A stretch of DNA of 64,000 bases from positions 16,940,974 to 17,004,973 of the forward strand of contig OX419757.1 of the NCBI GenBank assembly GCA_948567375.1. Reading direction: 5' to 3'. The first letter of the stretch is position 1, and every line of letters begins with the position of its first letter. Both the position numbers and the translations under genes were made by a program. Shown piece after piece: positions 14,436 through 63,615 of this stretch. The notes under the pieces are model-generated. The model saw nothing but the letters and a program-made list of their open reading frames with translations, was not told where the DNA came from and did no database searches. This stretch comes from Lunularia cruciata (lineage: Eukaryota > Streptophyta > Marchantiopsida > Lunulariales > Lunulariaceae).

Positions 14436-15920
14436 GAGGTTGATGAAAAAGTTCAGTATTATACAATCTAGATCTGCAAGATTTATGGTGCGCATGGCAA
14501 AGAAGCAACAAGTTCAGATGGTGGGTGTGATGGACAAGGTGATAGTATTAGTTATGGGAGTTCAAAATCTCATGACTTTCCAATTCTTGAAAGATTCAAG
14601 CTATGATTTGCTACTTGAGAAGTCATGGTTGAGAGTAGCTTGTACAAATGATTGGTGGCACATATTGTACTTGAGAAGTGGGCTATCAAAACATTGAGTT
14701 ACAGTTCCTATAATTAACACCACACACACTTCATCTTCAAATATGCCATCTTCTGATTATAGAGAATCAGATTCAAAAGAAGGAGCTTTGGGTATGAATA
14801 AAAGCATGAAGGAAGAGACCTCATTAGAGAAGGATGACTTTAAATTTGATTCAGATATGTATTCCTTGTGTGCCATGGATTTTTTACCTAAGGTAGGGGT
14901 TTTGAGGGACCTTGATAAATCCCCATTGAAACTTCAAAAGATAGAGAGAAGACTATTTACCTTCAAGTATAGTCCAAATGTTACCAAGGAGGAGAAGGTA
15001 AGAGATGAGGAGATTTTATGCAAGTTCATCCATGTATTTGATTTTGACTACAAGGATCTCAAGAAAGTAACCTTGGAGGAACACTAGAGAGAGGTAAAAA
15101 TCACATGCAAGACCTATTCACCAAAAGCAACATGGCATTAGCCAACCAATAGCTTTGATTGTGAAGGAGGAGATTGATAAACTCAAGGAGACTAGGTTTA
15201 TCTTTGAGATGGAGAATTCAGAATATGTATCTCTAATTGTGATTGTGAAGAAGAATGGTAAGCTTTGGGTATGTCTTGATTACAAGAAGCTCAATGTTAT
15301 TACCAAGAGGTACTACTACTCTTTACCATTTATTGATGAGATCTTGGAGAAGGTTGTGACTCATGAGAGATACAATTTGGAGAGGGTCATAATGAGTATA
15401 ACCAAATCAAGATTTCACTAAAGCATCAACAACTCACCACATTCAATATACCTTGGGAGACTTATGCTTTCAAAGTTATACCTTTTGGACTTTATAATGC
15501 TCCAACCACATTTCAGTGGTTCATGAACAAGGTATTTGAACCTTTGATTAAGAAATTTATGAGAGACTTCATTGATGACTTTTATGTTTATGGGAGCAAG
15601 GAGGAACACTTTGAGCACCTGATCAAGGTCTTGCAACACTTGGATGAGGTAAATTCATCACTCAACCCAAAGAAGTGCATCTTTGGTTATGGAAAATAAT
15701 TTTGGGGCATATCATTTCCAAGGATGGAATAGGAGTGGATCTTGATAACATAAGAAAAATCTCAAAGATTCTGTTCCCTTCAAGCTTGACAAAGTTACAC
15801 CAATTTTTAGGGATGTTTGGGTATTATAGAAAATTCATCTTCTTATTTACCAATAAGACTTATGCATTGAACATTCACATGAAGAAGGATGAGGATACAT
15901 GGTGATTTTGGGACAAGGAG
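14436..15920 (+). pseudogene. Family 1 protease remnant and reverse transcriptase
   Basis: 14436-14700 is the back half of the aspartic protease (FLKDSSYDLLLEKSWLR is the typical DLLLG.W.. end). 14743-15087 is an acidic linker. Reverse transcriptase starts near 15150: KEEIDKLKETRFIFEM, then KKNGKLWVCLDYKKLNVIT, and the catalytic-site box reads FIDDF at 15568-15582, keeping both Asp. Stops and frameshifts occur around 15419, 15640 and 15900. Order and motifs are those of Ty3/gypsy pol. Confidence 0.85.
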
Positions 15921-17765
15921 GCTCTTGCAACCTTTGAAGAGCTCCAAAAATCCCTTATTATGGCTCCAATTCTTGCTAAACTTGATTGGAGTAAGCCTTT
16001 CATCCTTTATATTGATATTTTCAATGTAGCTATAAGATGCACTCTTATTCAACTAGACCTATATGTGCATGATCATCTTATAGCTTATGCTAGTAGAAAA
16101 ATGGTCTCAATGGAGAAAAAAATATTCAATCATAGAAAGAGAACGGTTTGTAGTGAGTTTTGGTCTCAAGAAGTTTCAACACTAATTAATTGGAGGAAAA
16201 GCCACACTTTCCATAGATTACAAGGCTTTGAAGTACATCTTGAACAAGCCTAATGTGGAAGAGAGTCTAGGTAAGTGGATAATACTCTTGTTTGAGTATG
16301 ATTATGCTATTATTATATTACTAGGATAGACCAAGGAAGAAACATACAAATGTTGATTTGTTATCTAGAGCTTATGACCATGATGGAGTTGAACTAGTGG
16401 ATGATTCCTTCTTGAATAAAGAGCTCATGACAATCTCAATCACTCAAGAAGTTCCAATGGAGTACAAAGAGATCATGGACTTTATTACAAAAGGTAACTA
16501 TCCAAATGGGACGCATGTTAAGGAGAGGAGTGCTCTTGCAACAAGACATAAAATAGTGGAGGATATATTTTTTCACCAAGCAGCAGATGTTCTACTTCAA
16601 AGAGGAATGGATAAGGAGGAGTCTATCCTACTCATGAAGGATTTTCATGATGGTTTGTTGTGTAGAGGTCACTTTGCATGAAAGATGATTGCTTTCAAGA
16701 TTCTAGATATATAGGTTATCACTGGACGGGGATTTTCAAATATGGTCTTGATTATTGTAAACCTTGTAATTTTTATCAAGCCTTTTCTAGAAATTCTACC
16801 TCCATTCTACCTCTTAGGTCAATTCCATTACTATAACCTGTTGAGAAATAGAGAATTGACTTTGTAGATCCTCTCAATAGAACCTCAAGGAACAATTGAT
16901 ATATTTTGGTAGTTATTGATTACCTTACCAAGTGGGTTGAGTGTAAACCATTGAGAGGCAAGAATAAAGATGAAGTTGGTAAATTTCTTTATGAATGCAT
17001 CATTTCTAGGTTTGTTTATCTTTTGGAGTTTTGGATAGAGGAGGAAATTTCACAAAAATCATCATTATAGCCATGCTACAACATTTCTCTATCACACATA
17101 GAGTGATAATATCCTTTAAGCCAAAATTCAATGGCTTGGCTGAGAGAAAAAATCAAACCTTGTGCATGATGTTGGCCAAATATGCAAAAATAGAAAATGC
17201 TAAACATCACTAAGATAAGAAGATTTATGCAGTTCTATGGGAGAATAGGACAACCATGAAGACATCCACTAGATACTCTCCATTTCCTTTGGTATATGGT
17301 ATTGCATCTACTTTAGCTATTCACTTTGATCTTTCTACTTTTTAAACCGTTCATAGGAAATTGTAGAAGGCACAATGAAGTGATGCAAAGAATTCTAGAA
17401 AGGATCAACTCATGGAATTGGAAGGGGCAAGAGCAATTGCTATGGTTTGATTGAAACAACTCCAAAGGAAACAAAAAGGAGAGCTATGACAAGAGGCAAG
17501 GCAAGAACAAGATAGAGCACTTCAAGGAGGTGATTGGGTAATGTTGTTTTGATTCTATTTGATTCAAGAGATTGCAAAAGAAGTTCTTGCTTAAGTATCT
17601 TGGACCTTTCATTGTAAAGAAGGTATGCGGAAATTACACCTATGATCTCAAGGAATTGGGACGAAGACATTTTGATAAGATTAACTATGATAAGTTGAAG
17701 TTGTATCATAGAAGGTAAAGGGACCTTCACTTTGAGGACAAAGTGAAATCTCAATCCATGGTAAA
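15921..17765 (+). pseudogene. Family 1 RNase H and integrase
   Basis: The RNase H start is at about 15960 (KPFILYIDIFNVAIRCTLIQ). The integrase zinc-binding part is at about 16690-16800 and its core at about 16860-17180, including DRGGNFTKIIII and HRVIISFKPKFNGLAER, which hold the second Asp and the Glu of the triad. A basic tail runs to about 17740. Many stops. A GAGG-rich stretch before 17766 may be the remnant polypurine tract. Confidence 0.8.
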
Positions 17766-22870: not shown

Positions 22871-24180
22871 AAGGTAGGAATTCCGATTAGGTTGTCTTGC
22901 ACCTCTTAGTAAGACACCTAAGAATAGTCAGTCCCAGGATGGGAAGTTTGTTGAGAAGGTAGCCATAGAGCATGCCTTGAAGAGAGAAGAGCCCCAAGAT
23001 GGGAAGTTTTCCAAGAAGGCAACCATGGAGCAAGCTTTGAAGAGAAATGAGTCCCTAGATGGGAAGTTTGTTAGTGAAGCAACCATAGAGCAAGTTTTTG
23101 GAGGAAGATAAGTCTATTTTTGCAATGTAGATCAAGCCAATTTCACAAGGACAATCTAAGGAGAGCCAAGAGCCTCATCAAGCAGTGGTTGATCAAATAG
23201 TTCAGGAGTTCACGAGCTTGTTTCCAGATGATCTGCCAGATGCCGAAGGGATTACACTCTGATCGTGTTGTGCCCTTCAAGATTGAGTTATTGCCATGGA
23301 GTACTCCAATGAGTAGACCAATTTATCGGCTCTCACCAAAGGAGTTGGAGGAGTTGCGAACAACACTTATGGAGTTGTTGGAGAAGGATTTCATACGAAA
23401 GAGTACCTCTCTTTGGGGAGCATTGGTACTATTTGTTCCAAAGAAAGATAGAGGATTTTGTTTCTATATTCATTATCATGGGCTCAATAAGCAAACAATG
23501 AAGAATGCATATCTCTTGCCTTAGATTCATGACTTGCTTGATCAATTGATTGGATCACAATACTTTTCCAAGCTGGATCTTCACAGTGGCTATTGGCAAA
23601 TTCCCATTGATAGGAAGGATGTGGAAAAGACGGCCTTTTGCACAAGGTATGGGCATTTTGAGTAGAGAGTTTTACCTCTCGGGCTCACTAATGCTCTAGC
23701 AGTCATCATGGATCATATGCATTGGCTGTTGGATGGACTATTGGATTGGTACATGGTGGTGTTCTTGGATGATATCTTAATCTATAGCAAGATAGAGGCA
23801 AAATATGTGAACATGTGTGAAAAGTCCTAAGATGACTACCACAATTATATTGCAAGAAGTCAAAGTGTGCCTTTTGGCAAAAGGAAGTTACCTTCTTGGG
23901 GTACAAGATCTCATCAAAGGAGATCAAGATGGAAGAGGAGAAAATCAAGGCCATTACTGATTGGCCTACTCCAAAGGATGCTATAGAAGTACATGCATTT
24001 AATAGATTGGCCAATTTTCACTGACGGTTCATCCATTATTATACTCATGTGGCTGCATCATTGACTGATCTCTTGGGGAAGGACTTGAGCTTCTAGTGGA
24101 CCACCAAGCACAAAGAAGCATTCCAAAAGTTGAAACATATGGTGTGTTCAAGGCCCATTCTTCAACCGCATGATCCTTAG
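22871..24180 (+). pseudogene. Chromovirus reverse transcriptase
   Basis: After a repetitive linker with three copies of a GATGGGAAGTTT phrase (22937-23068), RT starts near 23180. Visible blocks: [53 protein letters not shown] and the active site VVFLDDIL at 23755-23778, both Asp kept. Stops at 23523, 23662 and 23827. Confidence 0.9.
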
Positions 24181-24550
24181 CTACCCTGTATGGTTGATTT
24201 TGATGCTTCTAACTTTGCAATTAGAGTTGTGTTGCAACAAGAATTCCCAGATGGACTACATCCATTGCCTTTGTGTCTCACCAACTCAATACGGCTTAAA
24301 GAAACTACTTTGCTTGAGATCAAGAACAAATTGCAATGGTATATGCCACCAAGGTCTGGAGGCATTACCTCTTGGGGAAACAAGTGATCATGCAAACTGA
24401 TCACAAACCATTGTTGCAGACCTTACACTTGGAACACATGAAGAGTCGACATCATCAATGGGAGGAACAACTCCAATTGTTTGACATCAAACTTGAGTAC
24501 AAACCAGATTGGTTCTACATCATCCTTGATGCTTTATCACGATGACCTGA
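24181..24550 (+). pseudogene. Chromovirus RNase H
   Basis: MVDFDASNFAIRVVLQQEF gives the D-A-S-N start of gypsy RNase H. Further on, WRHYLLGKQVIMQTDHKPLL is the usual TDH box. The protein ends with YIILDALSR. One shift occurs at about 24335. Confidence 0.9.
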
Positions 24551-25850
24551 TTTGAAGTCTCTTCCTCTCATCACAATGGCAATTACGACAGTGTCAATTG
24601 ACTCCAAGATCCAAAACAAGTTTCAATCAGCTCTACAAAAAGACCCCTTCTTCCAAATGGTACATGGTTGCCTTGTAGCATGCAACAAGGAGGACAACAC
24701 CTTCTCCGTCAAGGAGGGCCTTCTATTCCATGAGGACCGGATTTGTGTTCCAACCAAAGGTGATCTTCGACTTGTGTGCCTTCAAGAAGCCCATAATTTA
24801 CCCATAGCTGGTCACATGGGTGTGGAAAAGACCTTGGGTACCCTCCAAAACCAATGGTGATGGCCCAACATGACACAAGATGTTCAAGAATTTTTCCAAT
24901 TGTGTGAGAGCTGCCAACACAACAAGGCTAGCAACCAAAACCCAAGTGGACTCCCTTAACCACTTGCCATTCCATCCACGCGATGGAAGCATGTGAGCTT
25001 GGATCTCATCACTTCCTTGCCCAAGACAAAGCAAGGACACACAACAATCGTGGTGTTTGTGGATAAGCTTAGTAAGAAAATCCACTTGGCATCAACCTGT
25101 GATACCGTGGATGCTCCAACCTTAGCACAAATATACTTCAACAATGTCTTCAAGCATCATGGGATGCCATGTGTACTAATCTCTGACCATGATCCTTGAT
25201 TTACTGGGAAATTTTGGCAAACACTCTTCTAGATACTCGGCACCAAGCTTGCTTTGTCCACGGCCTATCATCCTCAACCGATGGACAAACCAAATGTGCA
25301 AATCATACATTGGAGGATATGGTACATGCCTTCATCAATATCCACCATACCAATTGGGATGAATGTCTTGCAGCTACAGAATTTGCCTACAACAATTCCA
25401 AACAGGCAAGCACCGGATTTTCTCCTTTCTTTCTCCAATTTGGCCAAGATCTGCTTGTTCCAAATTCTATTCTTGCTCCTCTTCCATCTTAAGTTCCTCA
25501 TACTTCAACATTCTTGACCACTATTTCCCAGTCTTTCCAACAAGCCAAATCTTACCTCCTTGTTGCTCAAAATTGTCAAAAACAATATGCGAACCACCAT
25601 CGTCATGATCTCATCTTTGAAGTCAATGATAAAGTCATGTTGTCCTCTAGTAACCTCCCTCTCTCCCTTGATACCCAAGTTTATAAACTTACCTCTAATT
25701 GGATAGGACCCTTTGATGTCACCCAAATTGTCTCTCCTATTGCTTATCGACTTGCCTTGCCTTGTCATATGCGTATCCATCCTATCTATCATGTTTCCAA
25801 GTTGAAACTCTTTGTTCCTAAACCCTCTTCCTTTTCCTCTTAAGTCCAAC
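24551..25850 (+). pseudogene. Chromovirus integrase
   Basis: The zinc-binding part has HNLPIAGHMGVEKT (two His) and CESCQHN (two Cys). In the core, SLDLITSLPK carries the first Asp and LISDHDP the second; the third is hidden in the frameshifted YHPQPMDKPN segment, where Glu is expected later. The GPY/F-like tail is at 25690-25840 (SNWIGPFDV, then KLKLFVPKP). Stops at 24857, 24958, 25197 and 25491. Confidence 0.9.
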
Positions 25851-27602: not shown

Positions 27603-27639
27603 CACCACAAATAAAGAGGCATGTCTATAAACCATATCT

Positions 27640-29032
27640 TCCTACCTCATTGGAGAGAAACATAAGTAGTCTAATAAATCATCACTCCATCTTCACTCAA
27701 GAGCACACTAGATCACCAACGCTCTAAATATTAGAGCACCTCACACAAACATGGTGCACAAACAAGAAGTAGCAAATAGAGAGGGTTCAATCATAAGAAA
27801 TCAAAATTATAACCATTCATCTCACAAATCAAAATTGGATTGACTCTACCACCATTTAGCAATTGACATAATATGAGTTTCTATCTACCCCTATGCTACC
27901 AAGATCACAAAAAACCGGATCAAACATCCTTTCCTAGCCAAAGCTACATAAGTATATGTACCAGTCTACCAATCACTTGGACAACAAGTAAAGGTGGACT
28001 AGTTGACTAGGGCACCAATCCAAGAACCAAAGATCTAGGGTTCAAACCTTGTTGTGTACAATCCTTAAAGGTGGGTAGAGTTTTCCAAAACACTACAATC
28101 AAACCGTCTAAACAAGCTAGTTTACACTTGCAAGCTTGTTTTTTAGCCTCTCTAGCCCATATCCCTTTACCCCTAAATGCCAAATAAGTCCTTTCTTCTT
28201 GTCAAATTAAACCCTCTCCAATTTGGCTAACCTCCACCAACTTGAGCACTAGCTAGTGCAAACCTCTACCAAACTTAGGCACCTCCAACTTTGGATAACC
28301 TTTGCCAACTTGACCTCCAAATCTAGACAACCTTTGCCAATCCGACAGACCTTTGCTAAAGTTTGATGATCTTCAAATTCTCTCCAATTATCAACTTGAG
28401 TAGATAGGAACATCCAAATCCCTAATTTGATGGATGGATTTTCAAATCTACCTCCAATTTTGCCTCTTGGGATGAATTCACACTACTCAACCCTGATTTT
28501 ATCTACTTGTGCTCAAATCAAACCCAACTTTAGTGCAAGTGAACACCCATTGTCTTGATTTGTGAAAATTTGGCAGCACTTCTCCAGCAAGTCCAACAAA
28601 TCTATCAAATCAATAAGAAATCAATTAGGGATTTTGTACACAACTAAAACAAACACACAGCTGACACAAACAACGATCAAGTAACCATGATCAAAGATAC
28701 CATTAATTCATAAAGCTTGAAGATACCACCAACATCCTCAATTCTTGTACCCAATTTTCCCATGACTTCACTTCTCTAAATGTAATCAATTCAGTTCACT
28801 GTCAAATTGGATAAAAAGTTAGATCACTCAATCTGATATAAAAAATATAAAATTGGATCACTCAACTCAAGAAACTGCTAACAATGGGCACTAATTACAT
28901 TATCGAGTCACATCCACTCTAGCTAAAAGACTCTAGGAGATGCTCACCAGCCTTTGTCACCATAGCCAAGAATTCAAAAGCTCAACATCGAAGAAGTGAA
29001 CCTTTTGGAGCTACACTTCATTACTAATCATT
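27640..29032 (-). repeat. Family 3 LTR fragment (minus), right of the DNA transposon
   Basis: Reverse complement is collinear with the family 3 LTR from about 9880 down to 8680 (and 54180 to 52880). Shared blocks include CTCACCAATGAGG, CATTTGGCA and TGTGGCTTGACTATAAT. It continues the piece at 18156-18362. Confidence 0.75.
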
Positions 29033-50882: not shown

Positions 50883-52629
50883 TTTGTCTACTATAATCTG
50901 TCAATATTTGTCTCCCATCATAAGTGCTTTCTATGGAATTTCAATGTTTCCAATATAAACTGGATTCCACAAAATTCGGTGGTGTTATTCTACGAATCAA
51001 ATTAGTTGTTCTAAACAAAGATCCTTTGATTTACTGAACATGGACGAACATGTTCCTTTCATGGTCTTACTTTGCCAAGTGGATATAGAGAGATGACGAT
51101 AAATTCGATCGGTGAATGGGAGATCCAGAACTCATTGATTGCACATGAGATGCAAGATAGGTAATGTATACAAGATAGTGAACATTTGAACATTTGATAG
51201 CATAACTTGGGAAACATATCAAGAGTAATATATGTATAAAAAGAGAGTGCATCCAACAAGCATACATAGAACAACAGTGCATGTAGAGAAAAACGTCAAC
51301 CGAATAAGTGACAAGACTTGACGAGCTAAATGAGAAAGATTAAAATAAACCTAAATCGGGAATCAATGTATAAACTTGGAAATCGAAAGCTGTGGAAGAT
51401 CATTGAGTTAGCCCGAGAGTTTGAAATCGCTCAGAAAACGAATGAAGTGGAGCGAAACATTAGAGTAGTGGATATAAATTATATTGCACCATGTGCTATG
51501 AACACATAAATCCTAAAACACAAAGGGAAGCAGAAAGGCTATCATAGTATACCTCCATGAAAACACATACGGCTTCATTTGTCCATTAGTGCCAAGTGGA
51601 TATGTTATATTTCCTTGCTTTGACTTCATTGGTGCAAAACTCAATGCAAAATCGATTTGTTATATTTCCTTGCTTTACGTGATCTGACATCGTCGCTAAA
51701 ACTTTCTTTATTTTGGTGTACTTCTTGTCTATTTGACAATTTAAAAGTCTGAAAGGACCATGGTTTTTAGTGAGGTTGCAACCACCGCTATTGTTTTTTA
51801 GCAAAGATCTTTAAAGCAAAAGGAAATATCTAAAGATAATTGTCAGTTTTATTCTAATGATGAATTGATGGACTAAAATTACATAATAATTTTCATATTA
51901 ATCAATTTTCTTAAGTTATAAAAAGAAGTACACTTTCATCTATAGTTAGATAATCAAAATAATACATCAATTTCTATAAAATAAAAACCATCAAATCTTC
52001 ACTTTCATAAAATATTTATTTAAAAATGTAAATTTTCATCTCTTAAATTAGCAAAATTTACTCTGAGCTGAGATTAATATATTAAAATCAAGAAAGTACT
52101 ATATCAAAATCAATTCCATATTTTGATAGTTGATGTATCAAGCACGGAATGAATGTATCAAAATCCAGGTTTGATTCTATTTTGAGTATCTCCTTCTACT
52201 TTGAGAGAACTTGCTCTTCTAATCTCTTTGTCGTTGTCTATCTAGGTTGCAATCTCTTGCTCGTGAAAATTACATACTCTTAGATTTGAATCTTATTTAT
52301 TTATTTTTCATTATAAAATCTTTAGTCCTTATAATAAATCAATAATCTTTATATGAATAAATTTTATGAAATACATGAACATCGAACACTCTTTTATGTA
52401 ATTTTTATCTCTCTAAACATGAGGAATATCCAACACAATTAAAAGAGATATTATATTAATATGCTTGTTGAGATATGGTTCCATAATTCATATGCCTCTA
52501 TTCTCATATATAATCTAGATTTTAAACACTTTTTATGGTACATTTCTTTCTTTTGTATATAAAATTTGTTCTAGATTTGATCACTTTTTTTAATATCTTA
52601 CTAACCTTTAAAACATTATTGTTGTACTA
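50883..52629. other. AT-rich stretch without genes
   Basis: Small frames only. From about 51830 to 52630 the sequence is extremely AT-rich with no sign of coding. A 24-bp phrase around GATTTGTTATATTTCCTTGCTTT is repeated at 51602 and 51654. No transposon protein seen. Confidence 0.5.
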
Positions 52630-54509
52630 TTGTCTTGTCATTTGTAGTGTTGTATCTAGATTGCTCGGACACGGGAGGTGCAGTGATAGTAGTTAGAGGT
52701 ATTTCAATAATTTCCTATAGACTACTTTCCGATGGTCAGATTTTGTGTTTGGTGTATTGACTTCACGGTGAGACCCACCGTCACTTTGCACCGTTCACAC
52801 TGTTGGGTGTGTCGTCAATGGGACCGATAGGGTTCAGACCTAACTCAAGTCTAGAGGTGTACTTTCAAAGTGCAGCTCTAGATAGCTCACTTCTCTGATG
52901 TTGAGCCTTCAAGTTCCTGGCTATGGTGGACAGAGGCCGGCGAGCATCACCTGAATTCTCTTAGCTAGAGTGGGTGTGGCTTGACTATAATCAGTGCACA
53001 GTTGTTGGTAGTTTATAGAGTGATAGATCAAGTATTGATCTGAGTTGAGTTGATTCAAGAGTTTGTAAATTAACTGATTACATCAGAGAAGTGAGGTGAG
53101 GGGGAAATTGGGTGCAGAAACTGCAAGTGTTTGTGGTATCTCCAAGTGTAGTGGATCATTGGTAGCTCGATTGAAGTTCAAGTTTTCCTTGGTGTGCAAA
53201 AGCTCGTTGCTTGATGCAAATTTGGCAATAAGGCAGGCGGTGTGCGGAAGCGCTTGCCAATTTTTGAGCAAAGAAGAAGCAATTTTCAAGCAATGGTTAT
53301 GATTTTGAGCTTAGGAGGTGAAGGTAGGACCAATTTGTTTGTGAGTTTGGCTCAAAAAGTAAAATTGAAGGTGGATTTGGGAACCTATTCTTGTGAACTT
53401 GTGAACTTGTGATTTGGAAAAATCCGTTAATTCAGTTTGGCTTGAATGGAGAGTGAGCAAACGATTTGGCTGTCAGCCAAATTTAGGGTTTATATCAAAT
53501 TTTATGTCAGATTTTTGTTGGAGTTTACATAAGATTTTGGCTAGATTTGGAGGAGTTTTGCTAGATGTGGAGGAGTTTTGAAGTTGCAGATTTTGGCTAA
53601 AGTTGGTGGAGTTTTTGCTAGATTTGGAAGAGTTTCACCAAATTGGGAGGAGGTTCAAAGTGGCAAGAAGAAAGGCCTCATTTGGCTGAATTTCCGCATT
53701 TAGAGGCTTCAAGGCAGAGTGTTGTGGGTTATGAGAGGCTACAAAGGTCTAGAAGGGCCAGCAAGCCAACTTGTTGGCGTGAGGCTAGCTAGTTTACAGT
53801 AGATCTTTGTCATTGTTTGGCAAAATCTGCCCATCCTGCTAGATTGTGCTCAATAGGGTTTGGCCCCTAGATCTCTTGTTCCTATACTGGTGCCCTAGCT
53901 AATTGGTCCACTATTATCTATACACTTGTAGTTTTGGCTAGGAGAGGCAGTTTGATCCCATTCTTGGTGATCTTGGTAGCTTAGGACGTAGATAGGATCT
54001 CCTATTGTGTCAAATGCCAAATGGTGGTAGAGTCAATCTTGTGTTGCTTTATGAGATGGAGGGTTTTTGTTTAGATTTCTTGTGATTGGACCCCCTCCAC
54101 TCTATGGTTCCTATTTGTGCACCACGTTTGTGTGAGGTGCCTTGACTTTTGAGCATTGGTGCTATGGTGTGCTCTTGGTAGAGAGGTTGGAGTGATGGCC
54201 AATCAGACTACCTTTGTTTCTCTCCAATGAGACTAGAAGTGATGACTTGTAGACCGTGAGAGTGCTTGTTATGATGGCAAGTTATAGTTTGCACTTTCTC
54301 CTAATGTACTTATCTCAATTAGAGTTACATTAGTGGGTGGTGTTCCATGGGTATTGGCACTTGGTCGGGTACTTGCGGTTGCGATTTGTGGTTGCAATTT
54401 GTGGTTTTGGTTTGCAATTGCAGTTGTTGTTACTTTGTCACAACGGAGTTCTTTGGGGATTCCAGAAGAGTTAGCCCTATAGTATGCATTGGATTTTCTT
54501 GGAGTGGCA
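52630..54509 (+). repeat. 5' LTR of family 3 element
   Basis: About 1.9 kb, long for a plant gypsy LTR. It is collinear with 62968-63515 over the first part and with 8642-10120 over the rest. It ends AGTGGCA before CTCGGTATCAAC. About 115 bp present at the start of the 3' LTR are not found here, so the left end is truncated or replaced. The left boundary is approximate. Confidence 0.8.
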
Positions 54510-54525
54510 CTCGGTATCAACATGT
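54510..54525 (+). other. Primer-like site of family 3
   Basis: CTCGGTATCAACATG follows the LTR end. CGGTATCA differs by one base from the TGGTATCA primer site; the copy at 10120 reads TTGGTATTAG. Confidence 0.5.
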
Positions 54526-54538
54526 ATTTTAGGTTCCA

Positions 54539-55720
54539 GTGAGGAAGGAGATTGACTCTAAGTTAGAGTTTGACATAGGAGTTGATTTAGTTGAGAGTGC
54601 ACTTGGCATGTCTGCACCATTGTTGTGGGACATGGATGAGATTTATGGGGCCTCCAAAGGCCTAGGTGTTACTCTAGTACAGTGGGTACCATGGAGTTGG
54701 ATGACTTTATCCAAGAGTTTGATAGTTGGTGCAATCTGCAATAGATGTGGAACCACACCCTTCATGGCATGGAAGAGGTTGTTTCAGCATTTGGAGGATC
54801 CATCGATGGACAACTACCATGAGTTTAGGAGAGCTCATTTGGAGGAGATTGAGTTATGGAGACAATATTGGTCTCCAAACTATATCTCTATCACCTCAAG
54901 CTCGATTGCCATGAGTAGATTGGCATTGCCTACGAGTTCTAGCTCAAGTAGCATTGGTGGAACTAGTGGAGGTACACTAGCTGGAGATAGTGCTACTACG
55001 AGTGGAGGTACCGCTACAGGAGGTAGTGTGGTACCGGGGTTTAACTCCATGGTAGAGTTCTTCTAGTGTTTGAGGCAAAACTACCAAGAAGTGCAGATTG
55101 ACAAGTTGAGGAGCTTGCAGGAGTTCTAGCGGAAGGCTGGAGAGAGCCTATACAAGGCATACACTTGAATGAGGCGGCTGATCAGTTTCACTTAGGGATT
55201 TACGGGGGCCAAGGCAGTCCAATTTTGGTATAGGATATTGGACAAGGAGTTGTGACATAGATATTGTGATGTTATGTTGTTAAAGGTTACTTTGCCTACT
55301 TTGGCAGTGGTCTTTGGTTTGGCTAAGCGTATTAAGCTCAACATGGTAGAGGAGAGAGTAGTGACATTTGGATTTGGTAGGGAGACCTCATCCATAGCTG
55401 TTACTTCTTCTAGAGTGTAGCAGAGTGTACCACGCCCAATTGGTTTTTGAGGACATGGTGGACAACCCAAATCCTATGGAGCGAGTGGAGGGCCTAGTGG
55501 AGCTAGACCTTTACCTTCATTTTGGGGTTAGTAGCAGCCAGTGAGTAGTGGTGTTGCTTGTTGGACTTGTGGTGGACCTCACCATAGGAGAGGGTGTACT
55601 CAAGGTAGTGGACCTAATACCTTTGGTGCATCATAGCCAGCACAGAGGCAACATGAGCATTGCCATAGATTTGGTCACACTAGTGACGGATGCTTTGACC
55701 TACACCTTGAGTAGCAGAGT
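54539..55720 (+). pseudogene. Family 3 gag with zinc knuckle
   Basis: The opening 175-codon frame (54539-55066) ends in a Ser/Gly/Thr-rich segment. After the stop, frame pieces include KAVQFWYRILDKEL and FGLAKRIKLNMVEE. A knuckle follows at about 55550, CWTCGGPHHRRGC, fitting a CX2C-His-Cys pattern with slightly altered spacing. Gag packages RNA; here stops at 55067, 55128, 55170 and others break it. Confidence 0.75.
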
Positions 55721-56181
55721 AGTAGAGCTGCTATGGCAGGTAGTAGGGGAGCTCCAATTCATGAAGGACAAGGTGGTGATAGAGGATCTACACCTAATAG
55801 AGGTGCAGTACATACCCTTACTTCTTATATAGCTATGGCTACTCAAATTGAGCAATTGGATCAAAGATTGGTTAGTATGGCCATTGCTCATAGGAGATCA
55901 GATTTGGGTGTTGAGGCTTCCACCTCATATGTTGGTGATAGAGATGCTTTGGACTTCATGTGCGGAGCAACATAGGTGGATGCATCTACAGCAATGATTA
56001 GGAGTGCAATTTGTGCTCCAGAGCCTAGAGGAGCATCAATGGAGTTGGACCCATAGAGAGGAGAGGCTGGGAGATAGGCCAGACTTCCCCAATCTTTCAT
56101 GCTCTCTAAGGCATTACAGACAACATCCATGGCTCCTATACATCCTAGTGCAAGTGTGGTAGGTGGTGATGGGGTGCATGA

Positions 56182-56869
56182 TAGACTACCTACTAGTTAG
56201 CCACCTACTACTACACAGATTGAGTCTAGTATAATGTTGGCGGTGGCTCAACTGATTATGCGTTATCCATTATTTTCAACTAGTGACATGTTTATATTGG
56301 GAGTTGACCAAACCCTAGTGTTCCGGTTGGTTGCCATACTTTGTGAGGGAAGGGATGATGTGGTCCCTACTACTAGAGTAGAGGTGGTTGATAGTGGATT
56401 TGACTTGGTTGAGGAGCATGGGATCTACTCAATGACCAGTGGTTTATGGCAGGCAACAATGGCTAGATTAGAGGAGTTACCAACTAGACCAACCTTTGAG
56501 AGAGCATGGTTTACACCTGGTGTTGACTACCTACTAGTTAGCCACCTACTACTACACAGATTGAGTCTTGTATAATGTTGGCGGTGGCTCAACTGATTAT
56601 GCGCTATCCGTTATTTTCAACTAGTGACATGTTTATATTGGGAGTTGACCAAACCCCAGTGTTTCGGTTGGTTGCCACACTTTGTGAGGGTAGGGATGAT
56701 GTGGTTCCTACTACTAGAGTAGAGGTGGTTGATAGTGGATTTGACTTGGTTGAGGAGCATGGGATCTACTCAACGACCAGTGGTTTATGGTAGGCAACAA
56801 TGGCTAGATTGGAGGAGTTACCAACTAGACCAACCTTTGAGAGAGCACGGTTTACACCTGGTGTTGTCT
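56182..56869 (+). repeat. Tandem duplication, unit 341 bp, in the gag-protease linker
   Basis: The block from GACTACCTACTAGTTAGCC at 56182 recurs at 56523. The encoded stretch (MLAVAQLIMRYPLFSTSDMF ...) is therefore present twice, at 56234 and 56575, with a few substitutions. 341 is not a multiple of 3, so the duplication itself shifts the frame. Confidence 0.92.
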
Positions 56870-57612
56870 TATTGGATACCCAAAGGGGGATTTTCCATTT
56901 GGTGGGACCTTTAGGGAATGCCTATACACCACAAAGAGTCTTATTAGACTCTGGTGCACAACCCCTTATGTTGGAGAAGGCTGCAATTATTGATATGGAG
57001 TTACAAAAGACCAATGTGGAGAGGTGTCCATTTTAGATCCAAACATCTCTAGGTGGTGGTTTGACACAGTACATCACACATCAAGAGCTTGTTATCTAGG
57101 TTCAGCCTGGTCATCCGATTGATAGCTTGGTGGTGAGAGCTCAAGCTATTGCGACAATAGCTAAGTCATATAATGTGCTAATTGGAGGAGTAGTGTTATA
57201 CCCCATGGGTTTCAACATTGACTATTGGGAGGAGTCAACCTCTTATAGACCAGATTGGCAGTCTGGTAAGGGAAGTGTATGTTGCCTACCAGTACGCTTT
57301 AGTAGTGGAAATCTTGGCTCACTACAGTCCGAGACCATGGCCACATCAGTTTTAGCTTTTAGTGGTGCAATTACTTGGCCTAGTGACTTGTTAGAGGGGA
57401 ATGTCCATGCAGAGGATACTCAAGTACTAGAGGAGATCACTAGGATTTGGAGTGCAAGTGAGATTGTTCCATCCACCTTGGATGTTCCATTGTGGAGTTC
57501 AAAGGAGGCATTGCAACAACATGTAGATCAATTGGTGCAACAGGCTTGGAGTGGAGCCTTTGTATCATCCGGAGTGAGTGTGAGGATGAGCCTCCAAAGT
57601 CGATTATTTTGA
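56800..57612 (+). pseudogene. Family 3 aspartic protease
   Basis: The active site is VLLDSGAQPLML with Asp at 56947-56949, an intact D-S-G-A. It continues after a stop at 57034 with SYNVLIGGVVLYPMGFNIDY, the conserved back end of the protease (the expected I/L-G-G), then YRPDWQSG and LPVRF. The protein then runs into a linker leading to the methyltransferase. Confidence 0.85.
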
Positions 57613-57654
57613 CACCTCTCGATACCACTCATTGCTTGGTAGTTTCTAGTAGAA

Positions 57655-58600
57655 GAAGTATGTCTATTGGAGTTTTTTGGTGGGATTAGTACTAGACTAG
57701 CTGCGGTATTACATGTGGGTATGCGAGTACAAAGGTACTTGTATGTGGAGAGTGATGAGACTGCTAGGCAAGTCTCTCTACATCATGTGGCACACTTAGC
57801 CTACCGGTATCCTGAGTTATTACCAATATCAGCAATTAGAGGTTACCAAAAGGTCCTACCAAGAGACATTTCCTTATTGGGGGCGCATGATCTAGAGAGA
57901 CATGGGCTTGTTCTCTTGGTGATTTCTGGATGGCCATGTTAGGGACATACACGTGCTAGTTGAGGTTTGGGTCTTTAGGATCCTTGTTTTGGTGTGTTTT
58001 GGGAAATGTTACGGATAGTACGACATCTCCAAGTTCATCAATCCATTTCTTCAACTGACATTTTGAAGAACGTTCCTTTGATGGGTGATTTTCTTACTCG
58101 GGTGGTGGCAAGTACACATTAGGTCTATTCTTGGATGGGACCTATTGTATTGTTAGATGCGGCTAGAGTAGGATCATAGGCTCATCATCTTTGTCTTTGG
58201 TGGACAAACCTCTTACTTAGAGAGGTTTTATAGTGTGCTTATGATGGAATTCAACGACTTGACCACATCCTTGTTGATGACATCTTGGATGTTGGGCATC
58301 AGCCTCAGATGGTGGTAGTGGCTGATAGGTCACCTATGGCAATGGTAAACCTAGTTGGATAGCCTAGAGCCATATTTCTCACACTCATGAGTTTCTTAGG
58401 CTCTCATGCTTTTTGAGAGGGAGGACTTGGTCTGGTTTGGGACTCACAATTACAGTAGATGGTGGAGCCCAACATTGATGAGAGGGAGAGAAGGTGATGG
58501 ATTTTTGTACCAATATTACCATTGTTCCAATAATGTTAGAGGCATCCAAGCATTGGATATTAGGTCAAGCTATGGACCTAAACTATTTGACCTAGATTGT
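57655..58600 (+). pseudogene. Retrotransposon-borne C5 cytosine DNA methyltransferase
   Basis: Methylates C5 of cytosine using S-adenosylmethionine, by family knowledge. Motifs appear in order. I: LEFFGGISTRLAAVL (57664-57710). Then YLYVESDETARQV, which fits motif II. IV: SGWPC with the catalytic Cys at 57937-57939, followed by a TAG at 57940 where Gln is usual, then GHTRAS and VFWEM. VI: KNVP at 58066-58077, with Lys for the key Glu. VIII: LLDAARVGS, stop, AHHLCLWWTNL (58150-58210). IX: RAIFLTLMSFLGSHAF. Then EPNIDERER (58463-58489) and X: LGQAMDLNYLT (58560-58595) after a frameshift. The style resembles DNMT3-like enzymes; the exact clade needs a tree. At least eight stops make it inactive. 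It lies between protease and RT of one polyprotein. Confidence 0.88.
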
Positions 58601-59652
58601 GAACCTTAGCTTGGTAGAGCAACGTAGGATGTGCTTGATAGGTATCACCACTCGGACACTTGTGAGCTCTATGCCTATCAAGACAATCCAAGCACATGTT
58701 GGGGGCAATGGACCGAGTGGACATGGGATTCTTGGGACACAGCCAATAGCTACTAGGGAGAGTGGTCTACTTGGAGTCCATCCAAGTGAACGTAGTCTCC
58801 TTGGATTACACTTTTGGTCTACTTGGGATGCAGCTAGAGGACGTGTGGAGCTTGCAACCAAAGTGGAGTGAGTTTTTCACACAAAGGTTGGGACTTCTAG
58901 TGATCAGAGGCATGACACTACTACTCCCCAGTGCAGCAGCCAGTCTATACGTCTTCCACACTTGTGATGGTTATAGAGGATACTTGGGAGCCAGATCTTG
59001 GATCCAAGCTTATAGGAGAGGAAAGACAAAGGGTTTGGAGGTTCTTGAGGAGCTACACGAGTTGTTTTCCTTCATTTTGAAGGATTTGGGTGCTCTAAAA
59101 GGACTTGGTATACAGATTGAGCTGACTAGCGATAGACCAGTTTTTTGACATACTCATTGCTATAGTGACATGGAGAGGACATTGATTCAAAGCCGGAGTA
59201 GAGACCTTTTTGAGGCTGGTTTGGTGGAGATCTCACATGGAGAGTATGCATCAGCTACAATGATGCTAGCTAAGAAGGATATGCATAGCAACTACACAAA
59301 TAGGCAAATGGGTGGAGATTACCATCCTATCAACCAACAGACCAAGGCTGATTGGTATGCCATGCCTACACCAAAGGAGATTTTTTTATGTGATTGAGCA
59401 TGCAAAGGTCTTCAGTACTTTGGATCTTCAAGCGAGATATCATCAGTTGCCGATCAGAGAGGAGGACAAGTCCAAGACAACATTTTGGGCTATTGATCCT
59501 CACAACAAGGATGTGTTATATTAGTGGAAGTTCTTACTATTTGGGTTGAAGAACGCTCTTGCCAAGTTCTAGAGGGTCATGGATAGGATCCTAGCTGGAA
59601 TGGATTTTTCTTGGTGCTATATTGATGACATTTTGGTCTATAACACTACTAT
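58601..59652 (+). pseudogene. Family 3 RT, first part, with linker
   Basis: After a linker (58600-59140) with SYVFHTCDGYRGY-like text, RT begins around 59170: RDLFEAGLVEISHGEYASA, MPTPKEIF, FSTLDLQARYHQLPI and the active site YIDDIL at 59618-59635, both Asp kept. Stops at 59146, 59396 and 59521. The frame is interrupted right after the active site by a solo LTR. Confidence 0.88.
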
Positions 59653-60388
59653 TGTAATACCAAGAGCTAGCCATATGATCTAGATGTGAAATTTGGTTTG
59701 GTAACATCTAGAATGATGTTACACATGATGGTCAAAATAGATCAGATAGAAGTATCACCAAAAAAGTACTTCTACTAATAGAGTAGAAACCAAAATAGAC
59801 TTGAGAACCTTAGAACCAATAGCTAGACATATGATTTAAAGGTGAGAATTGGTTTGGTGACATATGGAAGGATGTTACACATGATGGACTTAACAGATCA
59901 GAAAGAGGTATCACCAAAAGGGGACTTTTACTAATAGAGTAGGAACCAAAATATGCCTGAAATCTTTGAAGGCAATTTTGGAGGCCTAAACGGATGAATT
60001 AGGCCTCAAAAATGTGCACAGTTTCCCCCCAATAGAAGAAGGGTTGGCCTTTCCTCCCCTTGGTTTTTCTTGTCGAGAGCTTTCCAATGGTACCTTACTC
60101 GCGTGATTTTGAGACTCCTACAAGAAGATTCCCTAAAATATTCTCTCTGATCAAAGCTTGTTTGACCAACCAGATAGGACCTAGACCGACATGTCACCCA
60201 TCCAAGTAAGTAATCCAAGGGTGGAGCTTGCTGACATGTCACCTATCTGTGTGCCTAATCCTATGGTAGAGCTTCCTTGGAGGAGATCCTCTTTGTCTAT
60301 ATAATAAAGAGAAGGTGCTCCTTTGGGGCACCGAATGTTGAGTGTATAATCTGTGTTTTCTCTCTTCTCTTGTCCTCAGAGTATTACA
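59653..60388 (+). mobile_element. Solo LTR of a third LTR family, inside RT
   Basis: 736 bp, TGTAATAC at one end and GTATTACA at the other (8-bp perfect inverted ends), flanked by the 5-bp target duplication ACTAT (59648-59652 and 60389-60393). RT sequence is continuous across it. A TATA-like CTATATAATAAAG is at about 60297. Within it, two blocks of about 152 bp are repeated (59661-59812 and 59815-59965; shared AGGATGTTACACATGATGG-like text). Confidence 0.95.
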
Positions 60389-60393
60389 ACTAT

Positions 60394-61170
60394 GGAGGAG
60401 CATGAGAGACATTTGTTGGAGGTGTTTGAGAGGTTGAGATCTCATGGACTCAAATTACATCTTGGGAAGTTTAGGTTCTTCCATGAGCAGGTTGAGTATT
60501 TGGATCACACTATCTACCTCAGAAGACTTGGTGTTCAGCAGACCAAGGTGGTGGCTATTGCACAAAATCCTTGGTCTACAAATGTGAGCAGAGTGCAAGC
60601 ATTCCTTGGGTTGGCAAACTTCTATTGCCATTATGTTAGAGGATTTATTGCCATTGCCAAGGCTTGACAAAGCTGACCAAGCTTACACATGAGCGGTGTT
60701 GAGTAGGAAAGAGCTTTTGTAGAGCTCAAGGAGAGGTTGACACCTGCTCTTATTTTGAAGAGACCGATCAGAGGATGACCATTTCAGGTTCACACTAATT
60801 GGAGTATGTTGGGGCTTGGAGCAATGCTCACCCAACATGATGATGAGGGGAAGGAGTTTATGGTGGCCTATGCTAGTTGCTCTAACAATTCAGCAGAGGC
60901 AAAATATAGTTCTCATGAGGGAGAGTGCTTGGTAGCAGTTTGGGCAATAGCACATTTCCAATTTTACCTATTTGGTAACCCCTTCATTCTCATCACTGAT
61001 CATCAGCCATTGAAGTGGTTGATGGAGTCCAACAAGCTTTTAGGAAAGCTTGCACAACGGGCTCTAATTTCATAGGAGTATAATTTCATGGTTATTCACA
61101 AACATGGAGTGGTGAACCATGATGCAGATGGGTTGAGTAGAAACCCATGTCCTAGCCAGTAGGATCAGAC
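60394..61170 (+). pseudogene. Family 3 RT second part and RNase H
   Basis: RT resumes with MEEHERHLLEVFERL and HLGKFRFFHEQVEYL, then LGLANFYCHYVRGF. RNase H is at about 60780-61130: WSMLGLGAMLTQHDDEG, the SHEGECLVAVWAI box (Glu kept), TDHQPLKWL, and the terminal NHDADGLSR-like piece at about 61120. Stops at 60665, 60777 and 61075. Confidence 0.85.
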
Positions 61171-61360
61171 CAGAGCACATTGGCATGGTGAGACAAATGA
61201 GGAGATGGTGTCAAGTTGGCATGCATTGGCCTTTCTTTGTATATTTTCTGAGGCTTTGGTGGTATCTCTCTTAATGCATATAGGAGGAGTTATTGAGGTC
61301 ACAGATCTAGAGAGTGAAGATATTGGTTAAGTTTAGTGAGACATTCATGATGATGTATTA

Positions 61361-62460
61361 GTGATGGACTATCTTTGCACTGGTGTTGTGGGTGGCACAA
61401 TTGGGGCCAAGGAGAGAGACTGTGTGCTTCAGCAAGCCATACGGTTCAGATTGGAGTGTAGATACCTTTTGCGTGTATGGGAGGATGGTAGTGTGAGAGT
61501 AGTACCACTTCCATCTCAAAGACTACAGTTGATTTGTCATGCTCATGAGGAGCTAGGACATTTTGGAGTAAAGTATACATATAGCTTACTCCAGAGTCAT
61601 TATTGGTGGTACGATATGCAGATCGATGTACAATAGTTTGTTGTCAAATGTGTGGTTTGTGATCGAGGTAGAGCATCATTCAATGCTCCTATGTCCTAGT
61701 TGCACCCATTACCTATCAAGGGATTGGGTTACCGTTGGAGTTTGGACTTTGCTAGACCTTTACCGCTAACTGTGAGACATCATTGGTATGTTTTGGTGAT
61801 GGTGTAGCACTTCCCTAAGTGGATTGAGTTGGTGGCACTTCTTGACAAGTCCGGTGAAGGGATGGCTTACTCGTTCCTAGACCAAGTTCTTAGTCATTTT
61901 GGTGCACCAACTGAGGTGTTGACCGATCAAGGTATACAATTCTTAGGGGAGTTTCAGGTCTTGTGTGACAAGGCTTTGATTGACCATCATACTACCTCTT
62001 GAGATCACCCTGAGGCAGATGGCAAGGCAAATGGCTTAGCAGAGAGAGTGGTCTAGATGGTGAAAAGAGGATTGCAAAAGTATGGTTTGTAGAGAGGCCA
62101 CTTGGGAGATTGGGATCTCTAGTTACCTTGGTTGGCCATGGGCTATCAATTCAGTTGGCAAGCTTCCTTAGTATCCTTCTCTGCTTACTTTCTACTCTAT
62201 GGATGAGATCCAAATTTACCTGTAGCCATTCATCAAGATGTTACTATAGTTTTGGACTTGGATGATCTAGATGTATGGATAAGTGCATGTTCTCAACGTG
62301 CAGGGATCTTTTGGAGAGTGATGCCGATGGCCTTTGAGAACTTGGCAATTTCTTAGCATAGAGATACCTTATGCTATGCTACCATTTGAGGAGGAGGTTA
62401 TAGACACTCAATCCATCAATTTCATCCAAGAGACTATGTATATCTACAATAGACAATAGT
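61361..62460 (+). pseudogene. Family 3 integrase
   Basis: HHCC zinc-binding part: HEELGH (two His) at about 61546 and CVVC at about 61650. Core: LDFARPL (first Asp), LTDQG (second Asp, about 61920) and GLAERVV (Glu, about 62040). Stops at 61634, 61807 and 62055. Everything needed for the D,D-35-E triad can still be read. Confidence 0.85.
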
Positions 62461-62794
62461 GACGACACTTGATGTTTCGACAGGCCGCACTATCTTGAGA
62501 ATGTGTGAGGTTTTGCCATCTGGAGTCCTTGTGTTAGAAGGAGGTGATGGTGTTGTTTGGAAGGATCATGTGCACAATTGTGTGCCATGCCACCTCTCTA
62601 ACATTGATGGTACTATGGACCCAAGCTTAGCACTTTTACGTGTAGGCTTGAGGTGTATGTTATGTGGCTCTTCTGGTGGAGCTGATACTATGTTAGTGTG
62701 TGATAGTTGTTTGGGAGGATGGCATATGGCATGTATGACTCCTCCCCTCACGGTGGTTCCTCAAGGATAGTGGTTATGTCTTAGATGTACTTGA
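62459..62794 (+). pseudogene. C-terminal PHD finger of family 3 polyprotein
   Basis: After a linker (VWKDHVHNCVPCHLSNIDGT), a full C4HC3 set: Cys at 62654 and 62663, Cys at 62699 and 62708, His at 62723, Cys at 62732, Cys at 62777 and 62786. Order is CMLC, CDSC, HMAC, CLRC. TPPLTVVPQG, stop, W is the standard PHD phrase before the last pair, with the TAG at 62768-62770 in place of the usual acidic or Asn residue. The reading ends at TGA 62792-62794. PHD fingers bind histone H3 tails; here it sits where other gypsy elements carry a chromodomain. Confidence 0.9.
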
Positions 62795-62949
62795 TTTTTA
62801 GCTAGTTCATTCTTTATATGGTATAGATTACAGACAGGCAACTAACAATGGGGCTCCATAGCACTTGACCTTCTGATCTTTGCCCATCATAGGGTATACC
62901 ATATACTTGGAGTAAATGGCTATCTAGAGTTAGGGAGACCTAACCACCA

Positions 62950-62966
62950 GCTAGGGGGGGAGGCGA
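62950..62966 (+). other. Polypurine tract of family 3
   Basis: AGCTAGGGGGGGAGGCGA directly before TTGTAGCAC, the plus-strand primer that fixes the 3' LTR start. Confidence 0.8.
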
Positions 62967-62967
62967 T

Positions 62968-63515
62968 TGTAGCACTTTAGAGTCTATGTATGACTTATGT
63001 GTGAGTTGTGCTTCTATAGTGTATGATGTTTACAGTGATGTATGTTGTGTGGCAATGTATATATGCACAACAACTATCACGTCATTTGTAGTGTTGCATC
63101 TAGAGTTCTTGGACACTAGAGTTGTAGTGATAGTAGTTAGAGGTATTTTAGCAATTTCCCATAGACTACTTTTTGATGGTCAAATTTTGTGTTTGGGGTA
63201 TTGACTTCATGGTGAGGCCCACCATCACTTTGCATTGTTCACACCATTGGGTGTGTCATCAATGGGACCATTAGGGTTTCAGACCTAGCTTAAGTCCAAG
63301 GGTATAATTTCAAAGTGCAGCTTCAGAGAGCTCACTTCTCTTATGTTGAGCCTTTGAGTTCCTAGCTATGGTGGACAACCAGCAAGCATCACTTGGATTC
63401 TATTAGCTAGAGTGGGTGTGGCTTGACTATAATCAGTGCCTAGTTGTTGGCAGTTTCTAGAGTGATAGATCAAGTACTGATCTGAATTGAGTTGATTCAA
63501 GAGTTGTAAACGATC
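62968..63515 (+). repeat. 3' LTR of family 3 element, truncated
   Basis: Starts TGTAGCACTTTAGAGTC. It is collinear with 52640-53070 from about 63085. The remaining 1.4 kb of LTR is missing. Confidence 0.8.
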
Positions 63516-63525
63516 TCATTGTTAT

Positions 63526-63615
63526 GGCACCTTAGAGCCTATGTATGACTTATGTGTGAGTTGTGCTTCTATAGTGTATGATGTTGATAGCGATGTATAT
63601 ACACATGACATTATC
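63526..63615 (+). repeat. Second copy of the family 3 LTR start
   Basis: GCACCTTAGAGCCTATG and following sequence repeat 62970-63060 with few changes, placed right after the truncated 3' LTR. Confidence 0.75.

Follow-up and report, generated by a model that had tools for sequence, protein, structure and literature searches.

Retrotransposons that carry a DNA methyltransferase (MT) have been published from dinoflagellates and from the charophyte alga Klebsormidium, whereas land plants were said to lack them (de Mendoza et al., 2018, PMC5890265). Another paper mentions DNMT3 in streptophyte retrotransposons and cites the 2018 work (PMC12344493). Two of the described kinds are relevant here. The SymbioDIRS-Dnmt3 elements combine a DNMT3-type MT with a tyrosine recombinase and with repeats arranged as A-coding-B-A-B, and two domain orders coexist among them (PMC5890265). 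KnitGypsy-Dnmt3, from Klebsormidium nitens, is described as a Ty3/gypsy element with a DNMT3-related, unrearranged and intronless MT in its Pol ORF, and with repeats arranged like those of DIRS elements. When tested in yeast, the Klebsormidium enzyme produced no methylation, a result that the authors regard as inconclusive (PMC5890265). Our literature search of openly licensed PMC papers pointed to no report of such elements in bryophytes or other land plants.

The locus described here lies in a stretch of 64,000 nucleotides (hereafter, the window) from Lunularia cruciata. The element, which spans 52631 to 63610 (Table 1), almost certainly belongs, as a decayed copy, to a Ty3/gypsy family that bears an MT, is abundant and was active recently. 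This host being a land plant, the published picture of dinoflagellates and Klebsormidium is extended, as a sequence-only reading of the window had anticipated for such a host. Compared by description, KnitGypsy-Dnmt3 is the closest known kind: gypsy domains, an unrearranged, intronless DNMT3-like MT and DIRS-like repeats occur together in our element also. Since the repeats of KnitGypsy-Dnmt3 are described as of the DIRS type, the two have in common this rare combination of split repeats with gypsy domains. They differ in the host (alga versus land plant), in the PHD finger that follows the integrase here (the word PHD is absent from the main text of PMC5890265), and in the position of the MT, which lies in the Pol ORF of KnitGypsy-Dnmt3, whereas in young copies of our family a conserved UAG stands between MT and reverse transcriptase (RT). 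SymbioDIRS-Dnmt3 resembles the family in its MT type, its repeats and its two domain orders, but has a tyrosine recombinase where we find an rve-type integrase and 4-bp target duplications.

Table 1. Features of the decayed element (window positions) and four matches elsewhere in the host genome (contig positions).
Feature	Position	Strand	Evidence or remark
Left target-site duplication CTAT	52627..52630	.	right partner TTAT at 63611-63614, 3 of 4 bases equal
5' terminal repeat A1	52631..53080	+	52637-53069 is 87% identical to 63081-63510; ends by alignment to young copies, which start TGTC
gag-like region, broken	54652..56530	+	tblastn with Marchantia P0054 and P0025
Aspartic protease region, LLDSGAQ	56866..57280	+	motif by eye in ORF 56794-57036; homologous to P0028 and P0034
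DNMT3-like C5 cytosine methyltransferase domain, decayed	57640..58620	+	catalytic Cys codon 57937-57939 still present; motifs, PDB and protein searches, tblastn
Site of the UAG conserved in young copies	58934..58936	+	not a stop in the window copy
Reverse transcriptase, broken by about 740 bp between 59653 and 60392	59065..60667	+	tblastn; RVT_1 3e-05 on 60350-60664, below Pfam cut-off
RNase H	60779..61240	+	RT_RNaseH 4.3e-28; tblastn
Integrase, H2C2 zinc domain and core	61340..62452	+	Integrase_H2C2 1.2e-10; tblastn 61340-62791
C-terminal PHD finger	62654..62788	+	PF00628 6.5e-07; C4HC3 signature complete save for one stop
Repeat B1	62967..63072	+	repeat comparison, young copies
Internal repeat A2	63075..63521	+	match to A1
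Terminal repeat B2	63522..63610	+	repeat comparison, young copies
PF00145 matches L091-L094	C7:31989837-31990154; C1:48270096-48270446; C8:50013591-50013866; C1:51668693-51668857		profile match

The order protease, RT, RNase H (RH) and integrase (IN), with an integrase of the rve type, is that of Ty3/gypsy elements; the rve domain itself was matched by Pfam in relatives, and the protease pieces of the window element gave no Pfam match. Two tandem duplications were observed within the decayed element, at 56184-56866 (about 341 bp, 96%) and 59659-59970 (about 156 bp, 81%). Elsewhere in the window, two fragments of the same family (8651-10363 and 27639-29018) match only the LTR, the leader and the first part of gag, and are therefore uninformative on the MT. 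Two further decayed Gypsy pol regions, at 15397-17315 and 23129-25636, contain RT, RH and integrase but no MT, and the second has abundant relatives elsewhere in the genome.

In frame +1 of the window, 57640-58620 encodes a decayed DNMT3-like C5 MT. Motif I (LLEFFGGIST, from 57664) lies within a frame read from 57643 onward, and the Pro-Cys of motif IV (57934-57939), motif VI in the form KNVP, and motifs VIII and IX follow in the same frame; motif X is read in a different one, with a frameshift near 58490. All six motifs are thus located where the sequence-only reading had placed them, in canonical order. Nine stops interrupt the frame between 57643 and 58480, and the Glu of motif VI and both Arg of motif VIII are altered. 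That reading had also made its case depend on a match to a C5 methyltransferase model. Taken alone, the window copy had no Pfam match at E<=1 and only weak scores elsewhere (NCBIfam dcm E 0.12; PDB DNMT3A E 0.12), with DNMT3 chains making up 14 of the 16 PDB matches listed at E<=10; the assignment is secured through its relatives.

A search of 5.8 billion proteins (493 candidates) returned 22 such relatives, with E values from 2.3e-39 to 1.5e-92, the best of them 60% identical to the window MT. A longer query gave 31 relatives out of 6602 candidates, and a Marchantia query gave 40 out of 6772. Four species are named among them, Marchantia polymorpha, Calypogeia fissa, Sphagnum troendelagicum and Sphagnum fallax, and no Klebsormidium sequence; the remaining relatives carry no species name, and many come from metagenomes. 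On sequence comparison, the resemblance of the window MT to these proteins is far above chance level. A chance match of motifs is ruled out by the E values of the relatives and by the match of the family profile to DNMT3A (1e-16). Of the 20 members aligned, 18 matched PF00145; the two that did not include the window copy. A scan of IMG/VR with the MT profile yielded 28 stretches that fitted a pattern, none of which was confirmed.

Among the DNMT classes with solved structures, DNMT3 is closest to the family in the profile search of the PDB. After DNMT3A came the entry 4onj, labeled 'DNA methyltransferase', which we take to be a DRM (2e-9), DRM2 chains (1.2e-7), a tRNA-C38 methyltransferase of the DNMT2 type (6e-5) and HhaI (1.3e-4); no DNMT1, CMT or MET chain was named among the profile matches (52 at E<=1, 57 at E<=10). 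In a fold search, all 50 matches listed were DNMT3 entries, which is supporting evidence only, because the predicted model used, that of the relative P0002, is weak (mean pLDDT 53.5) and fair in its core alone. Family members have motifs I, IV (PC), VI (ENV), VIII, IX and X in the canonical order of C5 methyltransferases, and the rearranged order that defines DRM enzymes is absent; an origin from DRM is therefore ruled out by the order I-IV-VI-VIII, together with the profile ranking. The catalytic Cys is kept in 41 of 44 members, the Glu of motif VI in 43 and each Arg of motif VIII in 41. The predicted enzyme is DNMT3-like, with an unrearranged motif order. DNMT3A and DNMT3B, the nearest solved catalytic domains, nevertheless differ from it: the MT belongs to a retroelement protein, and motif IV reads Pro-Cys-Asn in DNMT3A versus Pro-Cys-Gln in most members (Q after the Cys in 37/44, E in 4/44, K in 1/44, a gap in 2/44).

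The host assembly comprises 565,766,749 bases in 74 contigs, of which eight are 60-85 Mb long and together make up 558 Mb. One plastid stretch has the gene order rps12-rps7-ndhB-trnL(CAA)-psbM-petN-trnC-rpoB-rpoC1. This ancestral order, which lacks the 30-kb inversion, rules out ferns and seed plants and leaves bryophytes and lycophytes. A 191-kb contig with trnR(acg), trnR(tct) and trnR(tcg) resembles the mitochondrial genome of a liverwort, and eight chromosomes would also agree with a liverwort host. With a relative of the MT as query, this genome gives at least 111 scored matches, a lower bound since only the best of 13,363 first-look candidates were scored; 66 of them have no stop within the match. 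A search for intact copies had been proposed; those with an unbroken MT frame are common. Four top PF00145 matches (L091-L094; Table 1) may be exons of host methyltransferase genes. Among the 12 matches listed for window positions 57101-59400, identity to the genome copies was 86.8-86.9%. The 30 best MT copies are much closer to each other, with a median pairwise identity of 98.2% over 4.1 kb (minimum 67%, where flanks differ); 21 of them have no stop in the MT, and all 30 keep WPCQGH and ENV. In this set (one copy, L081, excluded, and pairs below 85% identity skipped), pooled dN/dS was 0.36 in the MT versus 0.45 in the following 1.5 kb (406 pairs), values that are biased low by the choice of copies on protein score. 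Gypsy elements that lack the MT are abundant as well (at least 41 matches listed, 40 of them scored out of 10,004 candidates), and no MT match was found in the nine such loci read.

The young copies also define the ends of the element. The four examined start with TGTC and end with GACA, and all four are flanked by perfect 4-bp target duplications (ACTT, CCTA, ACTT and GTGC). Instead of two plain identical LTRs, which were not found, three of the four have DIRS-like split direct repeats, in the layout A1-coding-B1-GC-A2-B2. A1 and A2 differ at 7/449, 4/449 and 4/446 positions in these three copies, and at 67/449 in the window. The fourth copy (L104, C2:70838550-70839850) has the form A-coding-B, without A2-B2 and with its target duplication intact; it is either a product of recombination between B1 and B2 or a second insertion form. 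The GC consists of two extra bases at the B1-A2 junction in the three copies read (L106, L108 and L110), where the arrangement resembles a circle junction of two ends. A 17-base sequence across the B-GC-A junction occurs at 1208 places in the genome with at most one mismatch, and its reversed control at none. DIRS elements are known for a tyrosine recombinase and for insertion without target duplication; here, the integrase is of the rve type and the duplications are present in 4/4 copies. The combination of split repeats, rve-type integrase and target duplications raises a separate question, namely how the ends of the element replicate.

A second peculiarity concerns the coding region. It had been claimed that the MT lies between protease and RT. 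The order holds, with one refinement: in young copies an in-frame UAG intervenes between MT and RT, such that the MT is on the Gag side, apart from RT and integrase. The TAG lies 316 bases 3' of the MT match in all 24 collinear copies and in 28 of the 30 overall; the two exceptions read CAG and TCG, and one or both are perhaps out of register. For 6 of the 30 copies no other stop occurs in 4.1 kb; others have scattered extra stops. The codons that follow are CAG CCA in 20 of the 22 copies with printed context and CAG CTA in the other two. A stop codon followed by CAR-YYA is a leaky context known from tobamoviruses, and by analogy UAG CAG CCA would fit this type. Reading frames of three Marchantia proteins (P0031, P0053 and P0054) and of the Calypogeia protein P0027 likewise stop 76-78 residues past the MT. 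However, in the Marchantia proteins P0028, P0034, P0055 and P0056, and also in P0059, the MT runs into the RT without a stop, which means either that the UAG is not universal or that the gene models of some Marchantia proteins skip it.

Downstream, RH, integrase and PHD finger form a reading frame that is open for 645 codons in the one young copy read. The integrase thus ends in a PHD finger, and the complete C4HC3 signature is found in 12/12 PHD-matching proteins and, with one internal stop, in the window. In this the family recalls the chromoviruses, which also have a chromatin-reader module at the C-terminus of the integrase; theirs is a chromodomain instead of a PHD finger, and the MT is an addition here. 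The PHD finger of the Marchantia protein P0050 is most like those of CHD4, PHF12, ubi-d4/DPF2, ATXR5 and KDM5B, which makes chromatin contact by the element likely. Several of these chromatin-protein fingers are readers of the histone H3 tail.

Two domain layouts are distinguished among the 77 relatives examined: (i) MT before RT, in seven proteins (P0028, P0034, P0052, P0055, P0056, P0059 and P0060), and (ii) RT and RH before MT, in 14; the other 56 have no RT match. Marchantia and Sphagnum relatives belong to the first kind, and in Marchantia MT and RT share one protein. In the second kind, the MT lies between RH and integrase wherever the integrase is present, and RT-RH-MT-IN is continuous in one frame. 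This layout, RT-RH-MT-IN(-PHD), was observed in P0061, P0062, P0064-P0071, P0073, P0075, P0076 and P0078, mostly from metagenome sources. When P0072 and P0074, which have the same order, are included, 11 of 16 RT-first proteins possess the PHD finger; P0066, P0075 and P0078 end ahead of the integrase, and P0070 and P0076 have an integrase without a PHD match. For the MT-first kind, three cases of the PHD finger were found: the window, one young host copy and the Marchantia protein P0050, which is shortened internally.

In the 17 elements that have both domains, the MT and RT trees have a common split, with support of at least 98, between 13 RT-first members and the other four (the window, P0028, P0034 and P0059). 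When an outgroup was added, P0059 became unresolved; the MT-first kind is thus a layout group whose status as a single clade is unsupported, and the long, decayed branch of the window copy leaves its position relative to close relatives uncertain. MT and RT patristic distances are correlated (r 0.906; none of 5000 Mantel permutations reached this value), and the two domains diverge at similar rates (slope 0.93, median ratio 1.30). The MT is part of the element and is inherited together with the RT. The principal claim of the sequence-only reading, a C5 methyltransferase within a Ty3/gypsy element, is in this way borne out by relatives, genome copies and co-inheritance.

Base composition is consistent with methylation. 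Over 1523 columns around the MT, the window is 86.8% identical to the young copy L062. Changes of C>T or G>A, in the direction from young copy to window, account for 137 of the 196 differences (70%), a bias that is the decay expected for methylated DNA. Observed/expected CpG and CHG are 0.22 and 0.58 in the window element, 0.28 and 0.38 in its MT, and 0.15 and 0.32 in the first 30 kb of the window; loss of both in the element is as expected for plant-type CG and CHG methylation. Window positions 36-52 kb are not depleted (0.71 and 1.09), and 30000-52000 (0.70 and 1.11 for 30-52 kb) is probably an unmethylated gene region. Six long minus-strand frames at 37-52.5 kb had no Pfam match, ten ORFs of the window gave two weak Pfam matches below cut-off, and tRNA and Rfam searches of the window had no match. 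In the MT of the 30 young copies, CpG is 0.48 and CHG 1.31. Low CpG with CHG kept would be compatible with an active lineage marked at CG sites alone, and coding constraint could have the same effect; the MT-less Gypsy copies available for comparison are all old (9/9 read, with 3-16 stops each and pairwise identity of 0.887-0.920).

From these sequence features we infer enzyme activity, packaging, readthrough, PHD binding and methylation of the element's own cDNA, in the following scheme. A young member would have the layout A1 - gag-PR-MT - UAG - RT-RH-IN-PHD - B1-GC-A2-B2. Most ribosomes would halt at the UAG and produce Gag-PR-MT, by which the MT would enter the particle in Gag-like amounts, and rare readthrough would add the RT-IN-PHD extension. 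Ahead of integration or during it, the MT may then methylate CpG sites in the cDNA of the element itself. The integrase, through its PHD finger, may read the histone H3 tail and so help in the choice of site, and the split repeats would allow reverse transcription to rebuild both ends. That the window holds the MT domain of an old decayed Ty3/gypsy copy, in a family that keeps a DNMT3-like MT as a standing part of its protein and works as proposed, seems to us reasonably probable. For the particular role of the enzyme, particle-borne CpG methylation of the element's own cDNA is our best guess, held at somewhat less than even confidence, with action on host chromatin next.

The bryophyte elements and KnitGypsy-Dnmt3 may have taken their MTs separately, with the common layout reached by convergence: two layouts exist, KnitGypsy is known here by description and not by sequence, and independent acquisition in the K. 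nitens lineage has been argued, in that case relative to the dinoflagellate elements (PMC5890265). However, the tree of the RT and that of the MT are concordant for both layouts, and the unusual DIRS-like repeats are common to our element and to KnitGypsy as described in that paper; we regard separate capture as possible but on the unlikely side. A further alternative accepts an active MT and directs it at host chromatin or other DNA, where it would silence rival elements or mark the insertion site, in place of the element's own cDNA. The likeness of the P0050 PHD finger to those of chromatin proteins speaks for this, as does the report that two SymbioDIRS enzymes tested methylated the yeast genome and a plasmid (PMC5890265). 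Against it stands the position of the MT, which lies with Gag and is separated by the UAG from the integrase-PHD part; we regard this alternative as unlikely. It is quite improbable that the MT is a passenger, captured in ancient times and kept through linkage without benefit to the element; the abundance of MT-less Gypsy elements would agree with this, but the idea is already under strain from catalytic residues retained across two deep groups, from an MT that evolves at about the pace of the RT, and from the dN/dS of 0.36, a value biased low. Finally, the single decayed window copy without a Pfam call might have suggested a host DNMT fragment landed by chance in one element and absent from others, an origin refuted by the shared layouts and the one protein with RT in Marchantia, by relatives in Marchantia, Calypogeia and Sphagnum, by the number of genome copies, and by the constant distance of the B-GC-A junction, 3699-3701 bases downstream in 12 of 17 scored copies on contig C1 (8982 in one, none within 12 kb in four).

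A wider reading of the preferred scheme is tentative and, at present, rather doubtful: one streptophyte-wide lineage of split-repeat Ty3/gypsy elements may have taken up a DNMT3-type MT a single time, retained it from before the split of mosses and liverworts onward, relocated it on one occasion in the coding region and paired it with a PHD finger. Such elements would be self-contained, with both a writer, the MT, produced in Gag-like quantity upstream of a leaky UAG, and a reader, the PHD finger of the integrase, and new copies would arrive CpG-methylated at a chosen chromatin state.

Bryophytes, the model liverwort Marchantia polymorpha among them, have MT-bearing elements. The domain is already present in public proteins of Marchantia and Sphagnum, annotated as hypothetical or, automatically, as DNA (cytosine-5-)-methyltransferase, and the finding seems unreported in openly licensed PMC papers. 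DNA methylation is the main weapon of the host against such elements. An element that carries a methylation writer itself is therefore relevant to the question of why elements under silencing put up with methylation or even seek it. Because many copies keep an unbroken MT and a model plant has relatives of the family, the self-methylating retrotransposon, an idea already published, becomes testable in a land plant.
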